Shown in pieces: positions 4,522 through 53,740 of a stretch of 64,000 nt of DNA; within the stretch, counting starts at the first letter, position 1; every line of letters begins with the position of its first letter. The notes below the pieces were generated by a model. That model ran no database searches, was not told the DNA's origin, and saw only the letters and a list, made by a program, of their open reading frames with translations. This DNA comes from Saccharothrix australiensis (lineage in GTDB: Bacteria > Actinomycetota > Actinomycetes > Mycobacteriales > Pseudonocardiaceae), in the NCBI RefSeq assembly GCF_003634935.1, contig NZ_RBXO01000001.1, positions 7,155,501 to 7,219,500 on the forward strand, written 5' to 3'. The position numbers were made by a program, and so were the translations under genes.

Positions 4522-6125
4522 CACATCCGGAAGACGCCGTAGCCGACAGGGTCCAGCGGCGCGTTGGCCGCCGCGGACAGCGCGAGCCCGAGCACCGTGC
4601 GGGTGTCCTTCGGGTCGATCACGCCGTCGTCCCACAGCCGCGCCGTGGAGTAGTACGGGTTGCCCTGGTCCTCGTACTGGCGGCGGATGGGCGCCTTGAA
4701 CGCCTCCTCGTCCTCCGCCGACCACGAGTCGCCGAGCTGGTCGCGCCGCACCGTCGCGAGCACCGACGCGGCCTGTTCGCCGCCCATCACGGAGATGCGG
4801 GCGTTCGGCCACATCCACAGGAACCGCGGCGAGTACGCCCGGCCGCACATCGAGTAGTTGCCCGCGCCGAACGAGCCGCCGATGACGACGGTGAACTTCG
4901 GCACCCGCGCGCACGCCACGGCGGTGACCATCTTCGCCCCGTGCTTGGCGATGCCGCCCGCCTCGTACTCGCGGCCGACCATGAACCCGCTGATGTTCTG
5001 GAGGAACACCAGCGGGACGCTGCGCCGGTCGCACAGCTGGATGAAGTGCGCGCCCTTCAGCGCCGACTCGCCGAACAGGACGCCGTTGTTCGCCACGATG
5101 CCGACGGGGTGGCCGTGGATGCGCGCGAACCCCGTGACCAGGGTCGCGCCGTACTCCTTCTTGAACTCCTGGAACCGGCTGCCGTCGACCACCCGCGCGA
5201 TCACCTCGCGCACGTCGTAGGGCGTGCGGCTGTCCGTGGGCACCACTCCGTACAGCTCGTCCGGGTCCACCGCCGGTTCGACGCTCGGCTCGACGCGCCA
5301 GGGCCGCTCGGCGCGCGGCCCGAGGGTGCCGACGATGGAGCGGACGATCCGCAGCGCGTGCGCGTCGTCGTCCGCGAGGTGGTCGGTCACGCCGGACGTG
5401 CGCGCGTGGAGGTCGCCGCCGCCCAGCTCCTCGGCCGTGACGACCTCGCCGGTCGCGGCCTTCACCAGCGGCGGGCCGCCGAGGAAGATCGTGCCCTGGC
5501 CGCGCACGATGACGGCCTCGTCGCTCATCGCCGGCACGTACGCGCCGCCCGCCGTGCACGAGCCGAGCACGGCGGCGATCTGCGGTATGCCCAGGCGGGA
5601 CATGGTGGCCTGGTTGAAGAAGATCCGCCCGAAGTGCTCGCGGTCCGGGAACACCTCGTCCTGCCGGGGCAGGAACGCGCCGCCGGAGTCGACCAGGTAG
5701 ACGCACGGCAGCCGGTTCTGCAACGCCACTTCCTGCGCGCGCAGGTGCTTCTTGACCGTCATCGGGTAGTACGTGCCGCCCTTGACGGTGGCGTCGTTGG
5801 CGACGACCACGCACTCGCGCCCCGACACCCGACCGACGCCGGTGATGATGCCCGCCGCGGGCGCTTCGCCGTCGTAGAGGCCGTCGGCGGCCAGCGGTGA
5901 CAGCTCCAGGAACGGCGAGCCGGGGTCCAGCAGCGTGTCCACCCGGTCGCGCGGCAGCAGCTTGCCGCGCTCGACGTGGCGGGCGCGGGCCTTGTCCGAC
6001 CCGCCGCGGGCCGCCGCGGCGAGCTTGGCGCGCAGGTCGTGGACGAGGGCGGTGTGCTCGTCCGCGTACCGCCGGAACGCCTCGCCCGACTTGTCGGCGG
6101 CGCTGCGGAGGACGGGCGCGTCCAT
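4521..6125 (-). CDS. accD1: Acyl-CoA carboxylase beta subunit (carboxyltransferase), AccD1/MccB type
   Basis: A 534-residue carboxyltransferase with two crotonase-like halves. Segments such as [28 protein letters not shown] and [20 protein letters not shown] are characteristic of methylcrotonyl-CoA carboxylase beta subunits. It moves carboxyl from biotin on AccA1 to the acyl-CoA. The ATG is supported by GAGGAG about 9 nt upstream. It is first in the operon, and its promoter region carries two copies of a 16-bp inverted-repeat operator also found before the nearby tetR, so TetR repression is likely. The alternative, a propionyl-CoA carboxylase, is less likely because an acyl-CoA dehydrogenase is co-transcribed. 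Confidence 0.92.
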
Positions 6126-20630: not shown

Positions 20631-22178
20631 ATGGAAGAGGACAGGCGTGTACAGGTACTGGTGGTGGGCGCGGGGCTCGGCGGGCTGACGGCCACGCTGT
20701 TCCTCGCGCGACAGGGGATCTCCGTGCTGGGCGTCGCCAAGCACGCCGGGACGTCGCCGAACCCGCGCGCGACCGGGCAGACGAACCGCACGATGGAGAT
20801 CTTCCGGCGCTGCGGGGTGGCCGACGAGGTGCTGCGCGGCAGCGAGGGGGTGGCCTCCGGCATCGTCGTCAAGGTCGCCGAGAGCCTGCGGGGCCGGGTG
20901 TTCCACACCATCGTCCACGAAGAGGACGAAGTGGACGTCGGCCTGAGCCCGGAGGCGTTCGGCATGGCGGGCCAGGACTACGTGGAACCCGTGCTGCTGG
21001 CCGCGGCGCGCGGGCACGGCGCGGAGGTGCGGTTCGGCACCGAGCTGACGTCGGTGCGCCAGGACGCGTCCGGCGTGACGGCGGAGCTGCTCGACCGCGC
21101 GTCCGGCGAGGCGTTCCGGGTGCGGGCGGACTACCTGGTGGCGGCGGACGGGCACCGGTCGTTCGTGCGGGAGTCGCTCGGCATCGGGCGGCAGGGCCGC
21201 GGCGCGCTGAGCCACCACGTCGGGGTGGTGTTCGACGCGGACATGGGCGACCGGCTCGCCGCCGACAAGGGCACCCTGTTCTACCTCCAGAACCCCGAGT
21301 TCACCGGGGTGTTCATGATGACGAACACGGAACGCCGCAACGTGTTCGCGGTCGAGTACCACCCGGAGCGCGGTGAGTCGCCCGCGGACTTCCCGGCCGA
21401 GCGGTGCCGGGAGCTGCTGCGCGTCGCCACCGACGAGCCGGACCTGGAGCCGGACATCCTGGAGATCACGTCGTGGGAGATGGCGGCCTGGCTCAGCGAC
21501 CGGTTCCGCGCCGGGCGCGTGTTCCTCGTCGGCGACGCGGCGAAGGTGACGCCGCCGACCGGCGGCCTCGGCGGCAACACGGCCGTCGGTGACGGGTACG
21601 ACATCGCGTGGAAGCTCGCGGCGGTCCTGCGCGGCGAAGCGGGGCCGGGCCTGCTGGACAGCTACGAGGCCGAGCGGCGGCCCTACGCGCGGCACATCAT
21701 CGACGCGTCGTTCGCCAACTACGTGGAGCGCCTCGCGCCGCACCTGGCGGGCCCGGACGTGCCGGAGCCGGTCGACCACCTGCGCCTGATCTTCGGCTAC
21801 CGCTGCCGCTCGGGCGCGGTGCTGATCGAGGACGACGACCCGGCGGAGCTGGAGAACCCGCTGGAACCCAGCGGTCGCCCCGGTTTCCGCGCACCGCACG
21901 TGACCGTGCTGCACGACGGCGCGGCCACCTCGACCGTCGACCTGGTCCGGGACTGGACGCTGATCACCCTGAACCGCGCGGTGTGGGCGGACGCGCCGGT
22001 CGAGGTGCCCGAACTGGCCGACCCCACCGGCGAACTGGCCAAGCGCTACGGCATCGGCCCGGACGGCGCGAGCCTCATCCGCCCGGACGGCGTCATCGCT
22101 TGGCGCACAACGCAACGCCCCACCGCCCCAGCCGCCACAGTGACCTCAGTCCTGAACCGCGTAAAGGCGCATTCCTAA
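20631..22178 (+). CDS. FAD-dependent aromatic monooxygenase (PHBH/phenol hydroxylase class)
   Basis: 515 residues. FAD-binding VLVVGAGLGGLTATLFLARQG, the DG motif region VAADGHRSFVRESLG and the GD motif VFLVGDAAKVTPPTGGLGGN place it in class A flavoprotein hydroxylases. A thioredoxin-like C-terminal domain of about 110 residues is present, as in phenol hydroxylase and polyketide-tailoring relatives. It probably hydroxylates an aromatic or polyketide ring using NAD(P)H and O2. It stands alone, with its own promoter, before a converging MFS transporter; no biosynthetic genes are nearby, so detoxification is as likely as biosynthesis. Specificity unknown. Confidence 0.88.
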   Translation: MEEDRRVQVLVVGAGLGGLTATLFLARQGISVLGVAKHAGTSPNPRATGQTNRTMEIFRRCGVADEVLRGSEGVASGIVVKVAESLRGRVFHTIVHEEDEVDVGLSPEAFGMAGQDYVEPVLLAAARGHGAEVRFGTELTSVRQDASGVTAELLDRASGEAFRVRADYLVAADGHRSFVRESLGIGRQGRGALSHHVGVVFDADMGDRLAADKGTLFYLQNPEFTGVFMMTNTERRNVFAVEYHPERGESPADFPAERCRELLRVATDEPDLEPDILEITSWEMAAWLSDRFRAGRVFLVGDAAKVTPPTGGLGGNTAVGDGYDIAWKLAAVLRGEAGPGLLDSYEAERRPYARHIIDASFANYVERLAPHLAGPDVPEPVDHLRLIFGYRCRSGAVLIEDDDPAELENPLEPSGRPGFRAPHVTVLHDGAATSTVDLVRDWTLITLNRAVWADAPVEVPELADPTGELAKRYGIGPDGASLIRPDGVIAWRTTQRPTAPAATVTSVLNRVKAHS

Positions 22179-22247
22179 GCCCTCGCCCTCTCGCTCTCCG
22201 AGCCCCCTCGCCTCTTACGCTCCCACACTTCCCCTCGCACACGCGCC

Positions 22248-22376
22248 CGCGAGGCCGCGTCGGTGGTTCACGGCGCGGGTTGTGCCGATCACGCCTTTGG
22301 ATCGGCACAACCCGCCCCGTGTGCCGCCGACTCAAAGGCGGCCGAGCCGCCCGACGGCGTCGGGCAAATCCAACAC
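22248..22376 (+). repeat. Palindromic intergenic element, copy A1
   Basis: One unit of a 129-bp tandem pair, preceded by about 68 nt of pyrimidine-rich DNA. It starts CGCGAGGCCGCGTCGG, holds a 71-bp imperfect hairpin (22260-22330; inner stem GGGTTGTGCCGATC with GATCGGCACAACCC) and ends in GGCAAATCCAACAC. Its stem differs from copies B to E but loop and outline are the same. Confidence 0.85.
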
Positions 22377-22505
22377 CGCGAGGCCGCGTCGGTGGTTCAC
22401 GGCGCGGGTTGTGCCGATCACGCCTTTGGATCGGCACAACCCGCCCCGTGTGCCGCCGACTTCCCGGCGGCCGAGCCGCCCGACGGAGTCGGGCCATCAA
22501 ACACA
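22377..22505 (+). repeat. Palindromic intergenic element, copy A2
   Basis: Second unit, directly adjoining A1 with the same stem; hairpin 22389-22459. It covers the last codons and the stop of the convergent MFS gene. The tail ends CATCAAACACAG. Confidence 0.85.
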
Positions 22506-23758
22506 GTCTCTCCTAGCGCGACCAGGCACAGTGCCGTCACCACCGCGCCGGCGACCAGGTACAGCGACACCGGCCACGACGCCCGCGTGGGCGTCAACTC
22601 CAGCAACCACGCCGCGATCAGCGGCGACAGGCCGCCGCCGAGCACCGACCCGAGCTGGTAGCTCAACGACACCCCGCTGTACCGGACGCGGGTGCCGAAC
22701 AGCTCCGCGTAGTACGCGGGCATCGGGCCGAACACCGCGGCCGAGCCCGCGAATCCGATCACGACCGCCGCCACCACGAGCGCGGGCGACCGGGTCTCCA
22801 GCAACCAGAACAGCGGCAGCGCGAACACCCCGAGGAACACCGCGCCGCCGAGCATCACCGGCAGCCGGCCGACCCGGTCGGACAGGCGCGCGAACACCAG
22901 GATCGCCACCGCCTGCGCCACCGCGCCCGCCAGCCCCGCGTTCAGCAGCGTCGACCGCGGCATCCCCAACTGCTTGGTGCCGTACGAGACCACGAAGGTG
23001 GCCAGCACGAAGATGAACATGTTGAAACCGAGGTTCACGCCCGCGCCGAGCAGCACCCGCCGCCACGACCGGCGCAGCACGTGCACCACCGGCAGGCGCA
23101 GCGTGCCCGCCTCCTCCCGCGCCGCGCGGAACAGCGGGCTCTCCTCGACCGACAGCCGGACGTAGAGCCCGACGCCGACCAGCACCAGGCTGAACAGGAA
23201 CGGCAGCCGCCAGCCCCAGGACAGGAACGCGTCGCCGGACACCGCGGTCGACGCCGCCAGCGCGCCGTTCGCGAGCAGCAGCCCGAGCGGCGAGCCCAGG
23301 AACGTCCAGCTCCCGTACCACGCCGTGCGCCCCGGCGGCGCGTGCTCGACCGCCATCAGGGTCGCGCCGCCCTGCTCGCCGCCGAGGAAGAAGCCCTGCA
23401 CGACCCGCAGCAGCACCAGCAGGACCGGCGCGGCGATGCCGATCGAGTCGTACGTCGGCAGCAGGCCGATCAACGCGGTGCACAGGCCCGTCGCGGTCAG
23501 CGTCAGCACGAGCATCGACCGCCGCCCGACGCGGTCGCCGAAGTGGCCGATCACGACACCGCCGAGCGGGCGGGCGAGGAAACCCGCGCCGAACGTCGCG
23601 AACGCCAGCAGGGTGCCGACGCGGGGGTCGAACGTCGGGAAGAACAGCTTGTCGAACACCAGCGCGGAAGCCGTGCCGTAAAGGAGGAAGTCGTACAACT
23701 CGACCGCGTTGCCCGCCGAGCTGGCGAGCGCCACCCTGCGCACCCCGGAGTTCCCCAT
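22418..23758 (-). CDS. MFS transporter, metabolite:H+ symporter (MHS) type
   Basis: 446 residues with twelve membrane spans. GHFGDRVGRRSMLV (loop 2-3 motif), FFLGGEQGGATLM and RLSDRVGRLPVML (loop 8-9) are typical of the MHS group that includes shikimate, citrate and proline symporters. The ATG at 23758 follows AGGGTGG. Natural family sequence ends near ALGETVFDG; the final 29 or so codons are read from repeat element A2 and the stop is inside its hairpin, so the tail is element-derived. Substrate not predictable; an organic acid or aromatic acid would fit the neighbouring monooxygenase. Confidence 0.9.
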   Translation of the reverse strand: MGNSGVRRVALASSAGNAVELYDFLLYGTASALVFDKLFFPTFDPRVGTLLAFATFGAGFLARPLGGVVIGHFGDRVGRRSMLVLTLTATGLCTALIGLLPTYDSIGIAAPVLLVLLRVVQGFFLGGEQGGATLMAVEHAPPGRTAWYGSWTFLGSPLGLLLANGALAASTAVSGDAFLSWGWRLPFLFSLVLVGVGLYVRLSVEESPLFRAAREEAGTLRLPVVHVLRRSWRRVLLGAGVNLGFNMFIFVLATFVVSYGTKQLGMPRSTLLNAGLAGAVAQAVAILVFARLSDRVGRLPVMLGGAVFLGVFALPLFWLLETRSPALVVAAVVIGFAGSAAVFGPMPAYYAELFGTRVRYSGVSLSYQLGSVLGGGLSPLIAAWLLELTPTRASWPVSLYLVAGAVVTALCLVALGETVFDGPTPSGGSAAGKSAAHGAGCADPKA

Positions 23759-26481: not shown

Positions 26482-26487
26482 GTGCGC

Positions 26488-26966
<479 letters not shown>

Positions 26967-26973
<7 letters not shown>

Positions 26974-27116
26974 ATTTGCCGCTGTGTTGGATTGCCGCGA
27001 CTTCGTCGCGGCGGCTCGGCCGCCATTTTGTCGGGCCGTCGCGCCTGATTTCCCGCCGATCGAAGAGCGTGATCGGCGGGAAATGAGGCGCGACAACCCG
27101 ACGCGGCCTCGCGGCG
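26967..27116 (-). repeat. Palindromic intergenic element, copy B (inverted)
   Basis: Hairpin 27031-27101 (71 bp) with inner stem TTTCCCGCCGATC/GATCGGCGGGAAA and outer GTCGCGCCT/AGGCGCGAC. The tail TGTGTTGAATTTGCC abuts a second TGTGTTGGATTGCC, a partial duplication of the end. The TGA of the peroxidase gene lies in this tail. A purine-rich tract follows to about 27200. Confidence 0.85.
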
Positions 27117-27630: not shown

Positions 27631-27693
27631 CCCAACCACTCCCGCACCTCAGACCAAGTCGCCGCACTCACCCCCGACTCGCTCCCGCACCGC

Positions 27694-27829
27694 GCGAGGC
27701 CGCCGTCGGGTTGTCGCGCCTCATTTCCCGCCGATCACGCTTTTGGATCGGCGGGAAATCAGGCGCGACGGCCCGACCACAGGGCGGCCGAGCCGCCGAG
27801 GCGAAGCCGAGGCAAATCAAACACAGCTC
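27694..27829 (+). repeat. Palindromic intergenic element, copy C
   Basis: Hairpin 27707-27777 (71 bp); inner stem TTTCCCGCCGATC/GATCGGCGGGAAA with loop ACGCTTTTG, outer TCGGG/CCCGA. A smaller hairpin GGCGGCCGAGCCGCC follows, and the end is GGCAAATCAAACACAGC. Pyrimidine-rich DNA on both sides (27631-27692 and 27838-27900). Confidence 0.85.
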
Positions 27830-29679: not shown

Positions 29680-29876
29680 CAGGTCCCCCTCTCTGTCCTG
29701 GGACCTGAGAGCTTCGCCGGCGTCACGACGGTCGTGCCGTCGATCGGTCCGGCTTGCACCGTGGGTGCGCGCGAGCACGCTTTCCAGAGTCGCCTCGCCC
29801 GAGCGGTTCTCGTTGCCTGAGAGTGTGCGGGGTGCTTGCTCCTTCGGCGCTCCAACGACGCTGGAGGCTCTCCCGC
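29680..29876 (-). ncRNA. Tandem glycine riboswitch
   Basis: On the minus strand the leader shows two aptamer-like halves: GGGAGAGCC with GCCGAAGGAGCAA and CTCTCAGGCAA, then GACTCTGGAAAGC with GCCGGCGAAGCTCTCAGG and GGACAGAGAGGGGGACC. These are the conserved blocks of two-aptamer glycine riboswitches. It ends about 30 nt before gcvH, so control may be at translation or by early termination. Binding of glycine normally turns such operons on. Confidence 0.92.
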
Positions 29877-29935
29877 CCGGGTTCCGGTGCCGCACGGGGC
29901 ACCGCGGCCGATGTTGAGTTGGGCGAACGCGAGCA

Positions 29936-34429: not shown

Positions 34430-34445
34430 GAACTCCGATGTCGCA

Positions 34446-34576
34446 TCGCGAGGCCGCGTCGGCTCGTCACGCCTCATTTCCCGCGGATCACGCTGTCCGG
34501 TCGGCGGGAAATCAGGCGTGCTGAGCCGACTCCAGGCGGCCGAGCCGCCGTCTGCGGAGCAGCGGCAATCCAACAC
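34446..34576 (+). repeat. Palindromic intergenic element, copy D (carries the start of the ABC exporter)
   Basis: Hairpin 34459-34529 (71 bp): outer TCGGCTC/GAGCCGA, middle ACGCCT/AGGCGT, inner ATTTCCCGC/GCGGGAAAT, loop region GGATCACGCTGTCCGG. Outer-stem bases differ from copy C on both arms, keeping pairing. The GTG start of the next gene (34518) is in the right arm. Tail GGCAATCCAACAC. Confidence 0.85.
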
Positions 34577-37500
34577 GGGTTGGATCCGCCGGCTGTCGGC
34601 GGCGTGCTGGCGGCACCGGTCGCTGGTGGTGTGGTCGGTGCTGGCCGCCGTCGTCGGGGTCGGGCTCCAGGCGTTCTCGCCGTTGCTGATCAAGGTCGCC
34701 GTGGACGACGCGGTGGCCGGGCGCACCGATCGCCTCGCCGTGCTCGCGGTCGTCCTGGTCGGCTTGGAGCTGCTGACGTTCGGCACCGCGTTCGTGCGCC
34801 GGTACCTGGGCGGGCGGCTCGCCGTCGACGTGCAGCACGACCTGCGGCAGGCGGTGTTCGGCGCGGTGCAGCGGCTGGACGGGCCCAAGCAGGACGCGCT
34901 GCGCACCGGCCAGGTCGTGTCGCGCTCGATCACCGACCTCCAGCTCGTCCAGAGCCTGCTGTCGATGACGCCGCTGGCGTTCGGCACGGTGGTGTTCGCG
35001 CTGGCGGCGCTGGTGGCGATGTGCCTGCTGTCCCCGCTGCTGACGGTGATCGCGCTGGTCGTGCTGCCCGCCGTGGGGTTCGTGGCCGCGCGCAGCCGGT
35101 TGACGCTGTTCCCGGCCACGTGGTCGGCGCAGCAGCGGGCGGCGGACGTGGCGCAGCACGTCGAGGAGACGGTCACCGGCGTGCGGGTGGTGAAGGGGTT
35201 CGGGCAGGAGGCCCGCGAGGTCGCGCGGCTGGAGTCGCGGGCGAAGGCGTTGTTCGCGGAGCGGATGCGGGCGGCCCGCCTGGCGGCCCGGCCGACGGCG
35301 ACGCTGACCGCGCTGCCGTTCGTGGGCCAGGTGGCGGTGCTGGCGCTGGGCGGGTGGCTGGCGCTGCGCGGCGAGGTGTCGCTGGGCACGTTCCTGGCGT
35401 TCGCGGCCTACGTGGCGAACCTGGTCGGCCCCACCCGGCTGCTGTCCAGCCTGATGGTGACGGCGCAGCTGGCCCGCGCGGGCGTGGAGCGGGTGTACGA
35501 GCTGGTCGACTCGCAGCCCGACGTGGTGGACGGCGCGCGGGACGTGCCGCCCGGACCGGTGTCGGTGGAGCTGGACGGGGTGACGTTCGGGTACACGCGC
35601 AGCGAGCCGGTGCTGTCGGACGTGTCGCTGAAGGTGGCGCCCGGCGAGACGGTGGCGGTCGTGGGCACCGCCGGTTCGGGCAAGTCGACGGTGTCGCTGC
35701 TGCTGCCCCGGTTCTACGACGTGCACGCGGGCGCCATCCGGGTGGGCGGCGTCGACGTCCGCGACCTGCGGCTGGAGTCCCTGCGGCAGACCGTGGGCGT
35801 GGTGTTCGAGGAGGCGTTCCTGTTCTCGGACACGGTGCGGGCGAACATCGCCTACGGCCTGCCGGACGCGTCCGACGAGCAGGTCGAGGCCGCCGCGCGG
35901 GCCGCCGAGGCGCACGGGTTCATCGCGGACCTGCCGGACGGGTACGACACGGTGGTCGGCGAGCGCGGGCTGACGCTGTCCGGCGGTCAGCGGCAGCGGG
36001 TGGCGCTCGCGCGGGCGCTGCTGTCGGACCCGCGCGTGCTCGTGCTGGACGACGCGACGTCGGCGGTCGACGCGGCGACGGAGGCGGCGATCCACCGGAC
36101 GCTGGCGGCGGTGACCGCGACCAGGACGACGATCCTGATCGCGCACCGGCGCTCGTCGTTGGCGCTGGCGGACCGGATCGCGGTGCTGGACGCGGGCGCG
36201 GTGGTCGACGTGGGCACGCACGCCGAGCTGGTGGAGCGCTGCCCGCTGTACCGGGAGCTGCTGGCGGGGCCGGGCGAGGCGATCGAGCAGGTCGACCCGC
36301 GCGCGGACGCCGCGCTGGAACCGGGGCCCGACGGCGTCACCCCGGAGCTGTGGCCCGAGCCAGTTGAGGACGAGGTGGCGGTCCGCGCGACGAACCGGGC
36401 GGTGGGTGCCGCGCGGGTCGCGAAGGGCGCGCGGGGCGGTGGCGGCACGTCGGCGCTGGTCGGGGGCACCCCGCCCACGCCCGACCTGCTGGCGCGGGTG
36501 CGCGCGCTGCCGCCCGCCGACGAGGAGCCCGACCTGCACGGGGAGGACCCGCGCGCGCCCGATCCGGGGTTCCGCCTGCGCACGCTGCTCCGGCCGGTGC
36601 GGTGGGCGATGCTCGGCGTGGGCGGCCTGCTGCTGGTCGACTCCGCGCTGGCGATCCTGCTGCCGAACCTGGTGCGGCTGGGCGTCGACCGGGGCGTGGT
36701 GGGCGGCGAGCCGGGCCTGCTGTGGCTGGCGTCCGCCGTCGGGCTGGCCCTGGTCGGCCTGGGCTGGGTGTCGACGGCGGCGGGCGCGGTGGTGACGTCG
36801 CGGGTGGGCGAGCGCCTGCTGTACCTGCTGCGCGTGCGCAGCTACGCCCACCTGCAACGGCTCGGGCTGGACTACTACGAGCGCGAGTTGGCCGGCCGGA
36901 TCATGACCAGGATGACCACGGACGTCGACGCGCTGTCGAGCTTCCTCCAGACCGGGCTGACGACGTTCGTGATCAGCGTGCTGACCGTGGTCGGCATCGC
37001 CGTGGCGCTCGTGGTCACCGACCCGTCGCTGGCGCTGGTGGCGCTCGCGGTGCTGCCGGTGCTGCTGGTCGCGACGGTGATCTTCCAGCGGCTGTCGTCC
37101 AAGGCGTACGCCGAGGCGCGGGAACGGGTCAGCGCCGTGAACGCCGACCTCCAGGAGAACGTGTCGGGCCTGCGCGTGGCGCAGGCGTACACGCGGGAGG
37201 GGCGGTCGGCGAAGGCGTTCGCGGAGCGCAGCGACGCCTACCGGCGGTCCCGGATCCGGGCGCAGCGGTACATCGCGACGTACTTCCCGTTCCTTGCGCT
37301 GCTGTCCGGGGTGGCGCAGGCGGCGATCCTGGTGGTGGGCGCGTACCGGGTGGCGGCGGGCGCCCTGTCGCCGGGCGTGCTGCTGGCGTTCGTGCTGTAC
37401 CTGGGCCTGTTCTTCGCGCCGCTCTACCAGTTGTCCGGCGTGTTCGACGGCTACCAGCAGGCCCGCGTCGGCCTGGTCCGGATCGGCGACCTGCTGCGCA

Positions 37501-38306
37501 CGCCGACCAGCGTGCCGCCCGCCGCCGACCCGGTGCCGGTGACGCGGCTGCGCGGCGAGGTGGAGCTGCGGGACGTGACGTTCCGCTACCCCGGCACGTC
37601 CCGCGCGGCGCTGGAGGGCGTGTCGCTGCGGGTCGCGCCCGGCGAGACGGTGGCGCTCGTCGGCGAGACGGGCGCGGGCAAGTCGACGCTGGTCAAGCTG
37701 GTGGCCCGGTTCTACGACGCCACCGGCGGCGCGGTGCTGGTGGACGGCGTGGACGTGCGGTCCTACGACCTGTCGGCGTTCCGCGGGCGGCTCGGGGTGG
37801 TGCCGCAGGAGGCGCACCTGTTCGGCGGCGACGTCGCGGAGAACGTGGCCTACGGCCGTCCGTCGGCCGGTCCCGGCGAGGTCGAGCGGGCCGTGCGGGC
37901 GGTGGGCGCGCTGCCCGTGGTCGCGGCGCTGCCCGCCGCGTTCCGCCAGCAGGTGGGCGAGCGCGGGCAGGGCCTGTCCGCCGGTCAGCGGCAGCTCGTG
38001 GCACTGGCGAGGGCCGAGCTGGTGCAGCCCGACCTGCTGCTGCTGGACGAGGCGACGGCGGCGCTCGACCCGGCGACGGAGTCGGCGGTGCTGGCGGCGG
38101 GCGACCACCTGGCGGGTGCGCGGACGACGTTCGTCGTCGCGCACCGGCTGGCGACGGCGGCGCGGGCGGACCGGATCGTCGTGCTGGACCAGGGACGGGT
38201 CGTGGAGCAGGGCACCCACGCCGACCTGCTGGCGGCGGGCGGCCACTACGCCCGCCTGTGGGCGCACAGCACCGGCGAGCCCCTGCCCGACGACCCGAGG
38301 ACCTGA
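34518..38306 (+). CDS. Fused two-module ABC exporter (TMD-NBD-TMD-NBD)
   Basis: 1262 residues, two exporter half-units in one chain, like mycobacterial Rv0194. Module 1: membrane domain to about 330, Walker A VGTAGSGKST (near 383), signature LTLSGGQRQR, Walker B VLVLDDATSAVD. Module 2: membrane domain about 690-960, Walker A VGETGAGKST (near 1049), signature LSAGQRQL, Walker B LLLLDEATAALD. In NBD1 the catalytic Glu is Asp and the Q-loop reads VFEEAF, so that site is probably weak, as in heterodimeric exporters. The GTG start and first 19 or so residues come from repeat element D; no better start precedes the first membrane helix. Likely exports drugs or lipids. Confidence 0.88.
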   Translation: MLSRLQAAEPPSAEQRQSNTGWIRRLSAACWRHRSLVVWSVLAAVVGVGLQAFSPLLIKVAVDDAVAGRTDRLAVLAVVLVGLELLTFGTAFVRRYLGGRLAVDVQHDLRQAVFGAVQRLDGPKQDALRTGQVVSRSITDLQLVQSLLSMTPLAFGTVVFALAALVAMCLLSPLLTVIALVVLPAVGFVAARSRLTLFPATWSAQQRAADVAQHVEETVTGVRVVKGFGQEAREVARLESRAKALFAERMRAARLAARPTATLTALPFVGQVAVLALGGWLALRGEVSLGTFLAFAAYVANLVGPTRLLSSLMVTAQLARAGVERVYELVDSQPDVVDGARDVPPGPVSVELDGVTFGYTRSEPVLSDVSLKVAPGETVAVVGTAGSGKSTVSLLLPRFYDVHAGAIRVGGVDVRDLRLESLRQTVGVVFEEAFLFSDTVRANIAYGLPDASDEQVEAAARAAEAHGFIADLPDGYDTVVGERGLTLSGGQRQRVALARALLSDPRVLVLDDATSAVDAATEAAIHRTLAAVTATRTTILIAHRRSSLALADRIAVLDAGAVVDVGTHAELVERCPLYRELLAGPGEAIEQVDPRADAALEPGPDGVTPELWPEPVEDEVAVRATNRAVGAARVAKGARGGGGTSALVGGTPPTPDLLARVRALPPADEEPDLHGEDPRAPDPGFRLRTLLRPVRWAMLGVGGLLLVDSALAILLPNLVRLGVDRGVVGGEPGLLWLASAVGLALVGLGWVSTAAGAVVTSRVGERLLYLLRVRSYAHLQRLGLDYYERELAGRIMTRMTTDVDALSSFLQTGLTTFVISVLTVVGIAVALVVTDPSLALVALAVLPVLLVATVIFQRLSSKAYAEARERVSAVNADLQENVSGLRVAQAYTREGRSAKAFAERSDAYRRSRIRAQRYIATYFPFLALLSGVAQAAILVVGAYRVAAGALSPGVLLAFVLYLGLFFAPLYQLSGVFDGYQQARVGLVRIGDLLRTPTSVPPAADPVPVTRLRGEVELRDVTFRYPGTSRAALEGVSLRVAPGETVALVGETGAGKSTLVKLVARFYDATGGAVLVDGVDVRSYDLSAFRGRLGVVPQEAHLFGGDVAENVAYGRPSAGPGEVERAVRAVGALPVVAALPAAFRQQVGERGQGLSAGQRQLVALARAELVQPDLLLLDEATAALDPATESAVLAAGDHLAGARTTFVVAHRLATAARADRIVVLDQGRVVEQGTHADLLAAGGHYARLWAHSTGEPLPDDPRT

Positions 38307-52838: not shown

Positions 52839-53615
52839 ATGGTCGGCGTGGGCTCCAGCAGCGACGTACCGGCGTTGCGCCGCGGGCTGGCGGTGCTGCG
52901 CCTGCTGGCCAGCCGCCCCGGTCCCCTGTCGGCGGCGGCGGTGGCCCGCGAGCTGTCCCTGCCCCGCTCGACGACGTACCACCTGCTGGCGGAGCTCGCC
53001 GCCGCCGGGTTCGCCACCCACTTCCCCGAGGAGCGGCGCTACGGCCTCGGCGTGGCGGCGTTCGAACTCGGCTCGGCCTACCTGCGCCACGACCCGCTGG
53101 AACGCCTGGCCAGACCCCTGCTGCGGCGGCTGGTGGACGCCGCCGGCCACCCCGCGCACCTCGGCGTGCTGCACGGCGCGGAAGCGCTCTACCTGGCGCG
53201 GGAGCAGCCCCGCCAGCCCGCGACCATCGTGTCCGACGTGGGCGTCCGACTGCCCGCGCACCTGACCGCGTCCGGTCGGGCGATGCTCGCCCACCTGCCG
53301 GACGCCCAGGTCAGGGCCGTGTTCCCCGGTGTGGCGAGCTTCGTGGACCGCACCGGGCGCGGACCGCGGAACCTGCCCGCGCTGCGGCGGCTGCTCACGG
53401 CGGAGCGGCGGCGCGGCTGGGCCGTGGAGGACGGCTACGTGACCGCCGGCTTCGCGTCGGTCGCCGCGCCGGTCTTCGACCACGGCGAACGGCCGATCGC
53501 CGCGATCACCGTCACCTTCCGGCACGTGTGCGACCAGGAGTGCGGCGGGACGTGGCCGGAACTGGCCCTGGAGACGCGGAAGGCCGCCGACGCGCTGACG
53601 GGGAGACTGCGTTGA
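52839..53615 (+). CDS. IclR-family regulator, probable histidine-utilisation regulator
   Basis: 258 residues. An N-terminal winged helix (ALRRGLAVLRLLAS, LSAAAVARELSLPRSTTYHL, GFATHFPEERRYGLG) is followed by the IclR effector domain (HLGVLHGAEALYLAREQP, LPAHLTASGRAMLAHL, GYVTAGFASVAAPVFD). Divergent from hutH, sharing the 52731 palindrome. The ATG at 52839 has no ribosome-binding site; CAGGCT 8 nt before suggests a near-leaderless start, and GTG 52848 is the alternative. The TGA is within the end of repeat element E. Effector probably urocanate or histidine (inference). Confidence 0.88.
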   Translation: MVGVGSSSDVPALRRGLAVLRLLASRPGPLSAAAVARELSLPRSTTYHLLAELAAAGFATHFPEERRYGLGVAAFELGSAYLRHDPLERLARPLLRRLVDAAGHPAHLGVLHGAEALYLAREQPRQPATIVSDVGVRLPAHLTASGRAMLAHLPDAQVRAVFPGVASFVDRTGRGPRNLPALRRLLTAERRRGWAVEDGYVTAGFASVAAPVFDHGERPIAAITVTFRHVCDQECGGTWPELALETRKAADALTGRLR

Positions 53616-53740
53616 ATTGCCGCTGCTCCGCAGGCGGCGGGCTCGGCCGCCTGAAAGTCGGGCCATCGCGCCCGATTTCCCGCCGATCGAAAAGCGTGAT
53701 CGGCGGGAAATGAGGCGCGACAGCCCGACGCGGCCGAGCC
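53610..53740 (-). repeat. Palindromic intergenic element, copy E (inverted)
   Basis: Hairpin 53658-53728 (71 bp); inner TTTCCCGCCGATC/GATCGGCGGGAAA, loop GAAAAGCGT, outer TCGGGC/GCCCGA. A side hairpin from GGCGGGCTCGGCCGCC lies next to it. The tail CGTTGAATTGCC includes the IclR stop. It lies between convergent genes. Confidence 0.85.

Follow-up and report, generated by a model that had tools for sequence, protein, structure and literature searches.

The window analysed here, a 64,000-nt stretch of the genome of Saccharothrix australiensis, a member of a genus of soil bacteria, carries on its minus strand a gene for an MFS transporter that does not end in sequence of its own. The features at this gene end, in window coordinates, are as follows.

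22418..23758, minus strand: MFS transporter gene, with its end inside copy A2 (Pfam, ortholog alignment)
22377..22505, minus strand: copy A2 of a palindromic repeat, in canonical orientation relative to the reading of the MFS gene (repeat comparison, fold)
22418..22504, minus strand: 28 codons read from the element (VFDGPTPSGGSAAGKSAAHGAGCADPKA), followed by the TGA of the loop (ORF, ortholog alignment)
22248..22376, minus strand: copy A1, the tandem partner of A2 (repeat comparison)
22179..22247, minus strand: tract that is G-rich and C-poor on this strand, between A1 and the monooxygenase stop
20661..22178, plus strand: FAD-dependent monooxygenase gene, the convergent neighbour, with its own end outside the element

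The open reading frame at 22418-23758 (minus) encodes 446 amino acids and was matched to Pfam MFS_1 at 4.6e-37. A2 is the second unit of a tandem pair whose members are 94-96% alike, and its predicted fold lies 6.1 SD (minus strand) and 8.4 SD (plus strand) below that of shuffled sequences. The initial annotation had proposed that A2 encodes the end of the transporter, and this held: the frame enters A2 and stops at a TGA (22418-22420) in its apical loop, and the homology to orthologs stops at the edge of the element. It had also let the homology run to about ALGETVFDG and assigned some 29 codons and the stop to the element. The break does fall inside that stretch, but it sits at T418 of the G-E-T motif, because V-F-D-G is already element sequence; the stop stands, and the codon count is corrected to 28 whole codons spanning 22421-22504. 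Base 22505 is both the first base of the element and the last base of the T418 codon, so that the boundary of the homology and that of the element coincide.

The protein alignment that places the break had 16 rows, the window's MFS protein and 15 orthologs from Saccharothrix and Umezawaea, and G416, E417 and T418 were invariant across it. Past G-E-T, the tails of the 15 orthologs are variable, 5-19 residues long and have nothing in common, the next residues being L-R-R in nine, S-R-R or M-R-R in two and something else in four; at the same point the window's protein reads VFDGPTPSGGSAAGKSAAHGAGCADPKA instead of a native tail. At the DNA level, the alignments of the MFS gene end exactly at 22506 in 9 of the 15 named relatives and 12-94 nt before it in the remaining 6, and none of the 15 extends into the element. 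The MFS and FAD monooxygenase genes are neighbours, as in the window, in nine relatives; in the aligned stretch of the other six, no monooxygenase gene was found beside the MFS gene. The window's element was behind the MFS gene in none of the 15, as read by eye.

That the tail might be native to the MFS gene, its likeness to the repeat being due to chance or to a repeat derived from the gene, is an explanation that the unbroken open frame through the element would allow. The comparison with element-free orthologs that had been proposed at the outset speaks to this directly: the tail is absent from all 15 aligned orthologs, and its motifs are absent from all 35 C-terminal GET...* stretches drawn from the loci of 57 relatives, a set that includes some genomes twice. 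In addition, the DNA is 94% identical to the adjacent A1 and about 90% identical to many copies elsewhere in the genome, and a native origin is thus extremely improbable. On the sequence evidence, the replacement of the end of the MFS transporter gene by repeat copy A2 was confirmed. The predicted structure of the protein places its last helix at residues 395-420 and renders residues 421-446 as coil with pLDDT <50; as the model is poor (mean pLDDT 51, residues 1-210 <50), its reading was restricted to the unstructured tail. Together, the variable ortholog tails and the structure model suggest, without proving it, that the C-terminal end of this transporter is dispensable.

A2 belongs to a family of long-stem palindromic repeats with a unit of about 130 nt, frequently arranged in tandem and dispersed over the genome. 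The canonical order is a CTGTGTTGGATT edge, a small hairpin, GGCTCGGCCGCC, a long stem whose conserved loop ends in GCG-TGA-TC, and a foot, CCGACGCGGCCTCGCG. A scan for the loop pattern that tolerated at most one mismatch found it at 127 places genome-wide, against 0 for the reversed-pattern control. With two profile models, 129 copies or fragments were located at 88 sites in 803.9 kb of the S. australiensis genome, 17 of these sites coming from an unselected 400 kb and 71 from stretches picked for good matches. Queries of the A type and the B type gave 77 and 88 hits to the genome among the matches listed, which contain reverse-strand self matches of the palindrome, and the best 40 candidates were scored. 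A and B are one design with differing arms, and the arms change together: stem pairing is kept in 97.5-98% of cells, with compensatory change in 12/35 and 17/38 pairs. Among 39 relatives searched with A2, a match was present in 16 of the 23 of the same genus and, at E 1e-3, in 1 of the 16 others, and the exact loop was present in 8 of 13 genus members scanned. Over 400 kb of syntenic DNA, queries from the S. australiensis genome found 17 sites there versus 4 in S. algeriensis.

Some irregular units were also seen. Truncated units occur at genome sites 60048, 1112220, 5198209, 5360893, 7239222 and 7236410, and the cuts in family B recur near model positions 56 and 70, as if copying had halted at the long stem. 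A G-rich stretch (GGGAGCGGT..GTAGAGC) is shared upstream of several family B copies, such as those at 7183192, 1116385 and 1068373, so the spreading unit may exceed the hairpin in length.

As to what moves the family, a RAYT or a reverse transcriptase was rejected. The RAYT/Y1-type transposase family (PF01797) had 0 matches in the S. australiensis genome, with the control positive in 5 of 14 genomes, and a reverse transcriptase search of the genome likewise returned no match. The lack of both among the families searched is in keeping with a process in which recombination or gene conversion, and not a transposase, writes copies over older ones, as are the fragments shorter than 80 nt, all 17 of which are canonical 5' parts of the element; in family B they precede the full copy, and in the arrays of family A most of them follow it (five arrays). 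Such overwriting would account for the tandem arrays and the truncated units, yet a first arrival at the MFS gene would have had no copy to convert and the transposase search covered the Y1 family only, and this route is put forward tentatively, as a rather unlikely one.

Four further copies lie in the window.

26987..27116, plus strand: copy B; a short 5' fragment before the copy carries the TGA (26971-26973) of gene 26482-26973
27692..27820, minus strand: copy C, between two convergent genes with both ends intact
34444..34573, minus strand: copy D, with the predicted GTG start (34518) and N-terminus of gene 34518-38306
53612..53737, plus strand: copy E, with the TGA (53613-53615) of gene 52839-53615, whose tail is replaced

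Copies B and E had been credited with placing a TGA exactly at a gene end, and copy D with rewriting a second gene end in the manner of A2. For copy E the TGA is indeed within the element, and the protein tail is altered too, reading TGRLR* versus TERIGGHRDRPAGR* in S. algeriensis. The TGA at copy B is also of element origin, but it lies in the short 5' fragment, 13 nt ahead of the full copy, and the gene ends in VLC* versus VLP* in the comparison. The claim for copy D had to be dropped, as the gene preceding it ends in TQRKDIT*, identically in S. algeriensis. What copy D contributes, going by the predicted start, is about 20 N-terminal codons of gene 34518-38306, and unrelated sequence stands ahead of W-I-R-R-L in the S. 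algeriensis counterpart. A glycine riboswitch (RF00504) was found at 29794-29885 on the minus strand with 61.4 bits; it was the window's sole Rfam match above the gathering score, and a known RNA family at the element was rejected, there being no such match.

Across the 88 sites, with gene positions taken from a simple gene caller, the arrangement of the flanking genes is convergent at 42, tandem at 39 and divergent at 7. The convergent share (42/88, and 7/17 in the unselected 400 kb) compares with 66 of 350 gene gaps, and at least one gene 3' end adjoins 81 of the 88 sites, which shows a preference of the family, in this genome, for gene 3' ends and for the gaps between convergent genes. The two edges of the element differ in this respect. 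Where the 5' edge faces a gene 3' end, it overlaps called coding sequence at 26 of 64 sites, versus 1 of 59 for the 3' edge (p 3e-8); the edge is <13 nt from the gene end at 39/64 versus 3/59; and of the 41 informative sites in convergent gaps, 33 have the 5' edge as the closer of the two. Tandem gene pairs gave no orientation preference (co-oriented 22/39, p 0.5), and at the 32 usable sites of relatives the element came within 13 nt of gene ends at 7/17 for the 5' edge versus 7/22 for the 3' edge. Polarity as a family-wide rule was rejected on this result from the relatives, and the equal edges there, with the lack of an orientation preference in tandem pairs, mean that the polarity seen in S. 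australiensis may reflect selection or the G-rich spacer tract.

In 24 of these 26 overlaps the gene has its stop within the repeat or array; in the other two the called gene spans the whole element, which may be a gene-calling error. At 11 of the 26 read-in sites the stop comes within the element's first nine bases, in the form GTGTTTGA, GTGTTGA or a variant of these, against about 7.5% expected from the frequencies of the variants elsewhere if frames are taken as equal (p 1e-6). The later stops are a TAG or TGA before GTCGG, a stop in the family B stem or, for the MFS gene, the one in the loop. Edge variants capable of making a stop were found at 12/20 read-in sites, 13/52 other sites and 7/37 inner units, after unclassifiable units (6, 10 and 4, respectively) had been dropped, and such 5'-edge variants occur in excess at the sites that genes read into. 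When the 400 kb was compared with S. algeriensis, 6 of the 11 genes facing a 5' edge ended in element sequence. Native tails were lost from the MFS gene, the gene of copy E and a gene at 7347587, and the last residues and stop alone were changed in the gene of copy B and in genes at 6977667 and 7131822, three cases in which the stop sits in a short 5' fragment recognised by eye. Ten of the 11 genes facing a 3' edge were matched in S. algeriensis, and none of these ten ends in the element.

The same gene end is occupied differently in relatives. In S. algeriensis a different hairpin family of its own lies 24 nt behind the MFS stop (locus L072, after position 5300), with units of about 200 nt that are often inverted pairs; it was found at 26 places in 400 kb (L151-L170), 16 of them between convergent genes, and its loop, read by eye, resembles that of the window's family. 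A third kind, a nested repeat directly after the MFS stop, was recognised by eye in S. luteola, S. carnea, strain S26 and NRRL B-16348; in loci L074, L076, L077 and L110 this nested repeat after the MFS stop shows GTGTCCTACGTTC and GAGTTCAACGCTCAG hairpins, and in L076 and L110 the end of the neighbour gene is also strikingly G-rich on the same strand. The MFS gene end seems to offer a niche to repeats of more than one kind, a pattern compatible both with tolerance and with use as a terminator.

These observations bear on whether the element may be a portable gene ending, in which the stop and the long hairpin would act together as a bidirectional terminator or as a stabiliser of the mRNA 3' end, its location being selected and not tolerated. 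The preference for convergent gene pairs, the compensatory changes in the stem and the other hairpins behind the MFS gene in S. algeriensis and four further relatives would suit such a function. A classical terminator was nevertheless rejected, with no T run after the hairpin (0 found in 22100-22700); relatives without the element manage without it; and a location at gene ends is predicted equally by tolerance alone. A selected function of this type is the less probable reading.

A further property of the sites is a G-rich, C-poor 3' flank. On the element strand the mean skew is about 0.46 over the first 50 nt, about 0.2 at 100-150 nt and about zero past 200 nt, and 84 of the 88 sites have a positive value for the first 100 nt. 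The flank is low-complexity DNA that partly enters coding DNA, where the skew is weaker; its purine content is 0.65-0.71, versus a balanced 0.49-0.53 in element-free intergenic DNA. In the last 60 nt of 49 neighbour genes the skew on the element strand is 0.23 versus -0.07 in 243 control genes (p 7e-18). Compared with S. algeriensis, the 16 alignable sites had 73 C to T and 23 G to A changes within 250 nt, the C to T excess being favoured by 11 sites, opposed by 3 and equal at 2; at the ten sites with a facing gene 3' end the counts were 55 and 12, versus 249 and 156 in control genes (p 9e-4). This excess was not seen on the 5' side of the element (9 vs 17 and 16 vs 23), nor was strand-biased change seen at the MFS locus itself, where the near-invariant columns, 40 in the neighbour gene's first 100 nt, held one C to T and two G to A. 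Transcription of the upstream gene was rejected as the cause, the skew being alike in all four gene arrangements, and so was a pre-existing skewed target, since the alignable S. algeriensis DNA lacks it (GC skew -0.01 vs 0.09 within 100 nt, counting alignable positions alone). A scan of 42 sites in seven relatives, with one to sixteen sites each, found the flank G-rich in G006, G009 and G011 and not in G010, G013, G016 and G021; it is thus present in four Saccharothrix genomes, S. australiensis included, and absent in four others, and is not a fixed property of the repeat. One could imagine that the family arrives at gene stops in a fixed polarity, bringing its own stop and hairpin, and that a copying or mutagenic process acting on one side lays bare a single strand over about 200 nt, leaving G-rich, C-poor DNA (through C to T change on the element strand) that reaches into the neighbour gene, in some Saccharothrix lineages only; this is a speculative and unlikely scenario. 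If upheld, the strand-biased 3' flank would be a footprint of the copying or the tolerance of a repeat in a genome without RAYT.

Repeats that give stops and tails to genes are of a known kind, seen in REPs and MITEs, and no report of such a family in Saccharothrix was found in the open-licence PMC literature. REP/BIME and the GTAG- and CGTC-tagged repeats are described in PMC3733652 and PMC2817692 as high-copy hairpins located chiefly downstream of coding regions, in gaps between genes that converge or point the same way, and the former has GTAG REPs often providing a TAG stop to flanking ORFs and some repeats at the ends of coding regions. The Saccharothrix family is likewise an extragenic, high-copy hairpin repeat 3' of genes (127 loop matches, 81/88 sites) that supplies stops, although its unit is about 130 nt with a long stem and not the 20-40 bp given there, and its stops, at the 5' edge or in the loop, are for the most part TGA instead of TAG. 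On the reverse strand of the ~130-nt unit, CGTC occurs where the long stem has its foot. ERIC, Correia/NEMIS and the Rickettsia palindromic elements are covered in PMC2229807 as MITEs whose frames are fused to host genes. In common with these elements of ~100-200 bp, the Saccharothrix family has a long stem-loop, has no coding capacity of its own and is read in frame by host genes, but its fusions are at gene ends and those of the MITEs, on that text, are spread through genes. Terminal inverted repeats were not found, the consensus ends TGTGTTGGATT and CCTCGCG not being mutually inverted as read by eye, and the intergenic DNA at the sites was not alignable with the nearest relative compared. 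With no RAYT and no terminal inverted repeats, the family was filed with neither class, although by analogy it resembles both in its behaviour at gene ends. For E. coli, REPs that lie no more than 15 nt from a stop codon are reported to lower translation (PMC12306157); the hairpin right behind the stop codon is shared with the Saccharothrix family, so an effect on the translation of the host gene is possible, with the difference, as far as that text goes, that the stop is the upstream gene's in E. coli and often the element's own here.

The reading that the evidence favours, and which is very probably correct, is that of a non-autonomous palindromic family, one copy of which took the place of the variable native tail and stop of the MFS gene by insertion or recombination, followed by tolerance and by selection for early stops. 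Through insertion or recombination, copies would come to lie in intergenic DNA and within the final codons of genes, and those that damage a protein would be lost, with survival of copies that swap merely a dispensable tail. Among the variants of the 5' edge, mutation and selection would then favour those that bring a stop into frame at once, GTGTTTGA in one frame and GTGTTGA in another. A gene without such a stop in frame, as is the case for the MFS gene, ends at a later stop of the element. The MFS frame enters at the 5' edge, passes over 28 codons, first through the small hairpin and then along one arm of the long stem, and stops at the TGA of the loop; we infer that this tail would be translated and that the hairpin may affect the mRNA.

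As judged against element-free orthologs, a high-copy hairpin repeat has repeatedly rewritten the C-termini and stops of proteins in one genome, and some annotated gene ends in this genome are accordingly repeat sequence. In the two stop-making edge variants, selection for a stop following capture takes a form that can be counted.
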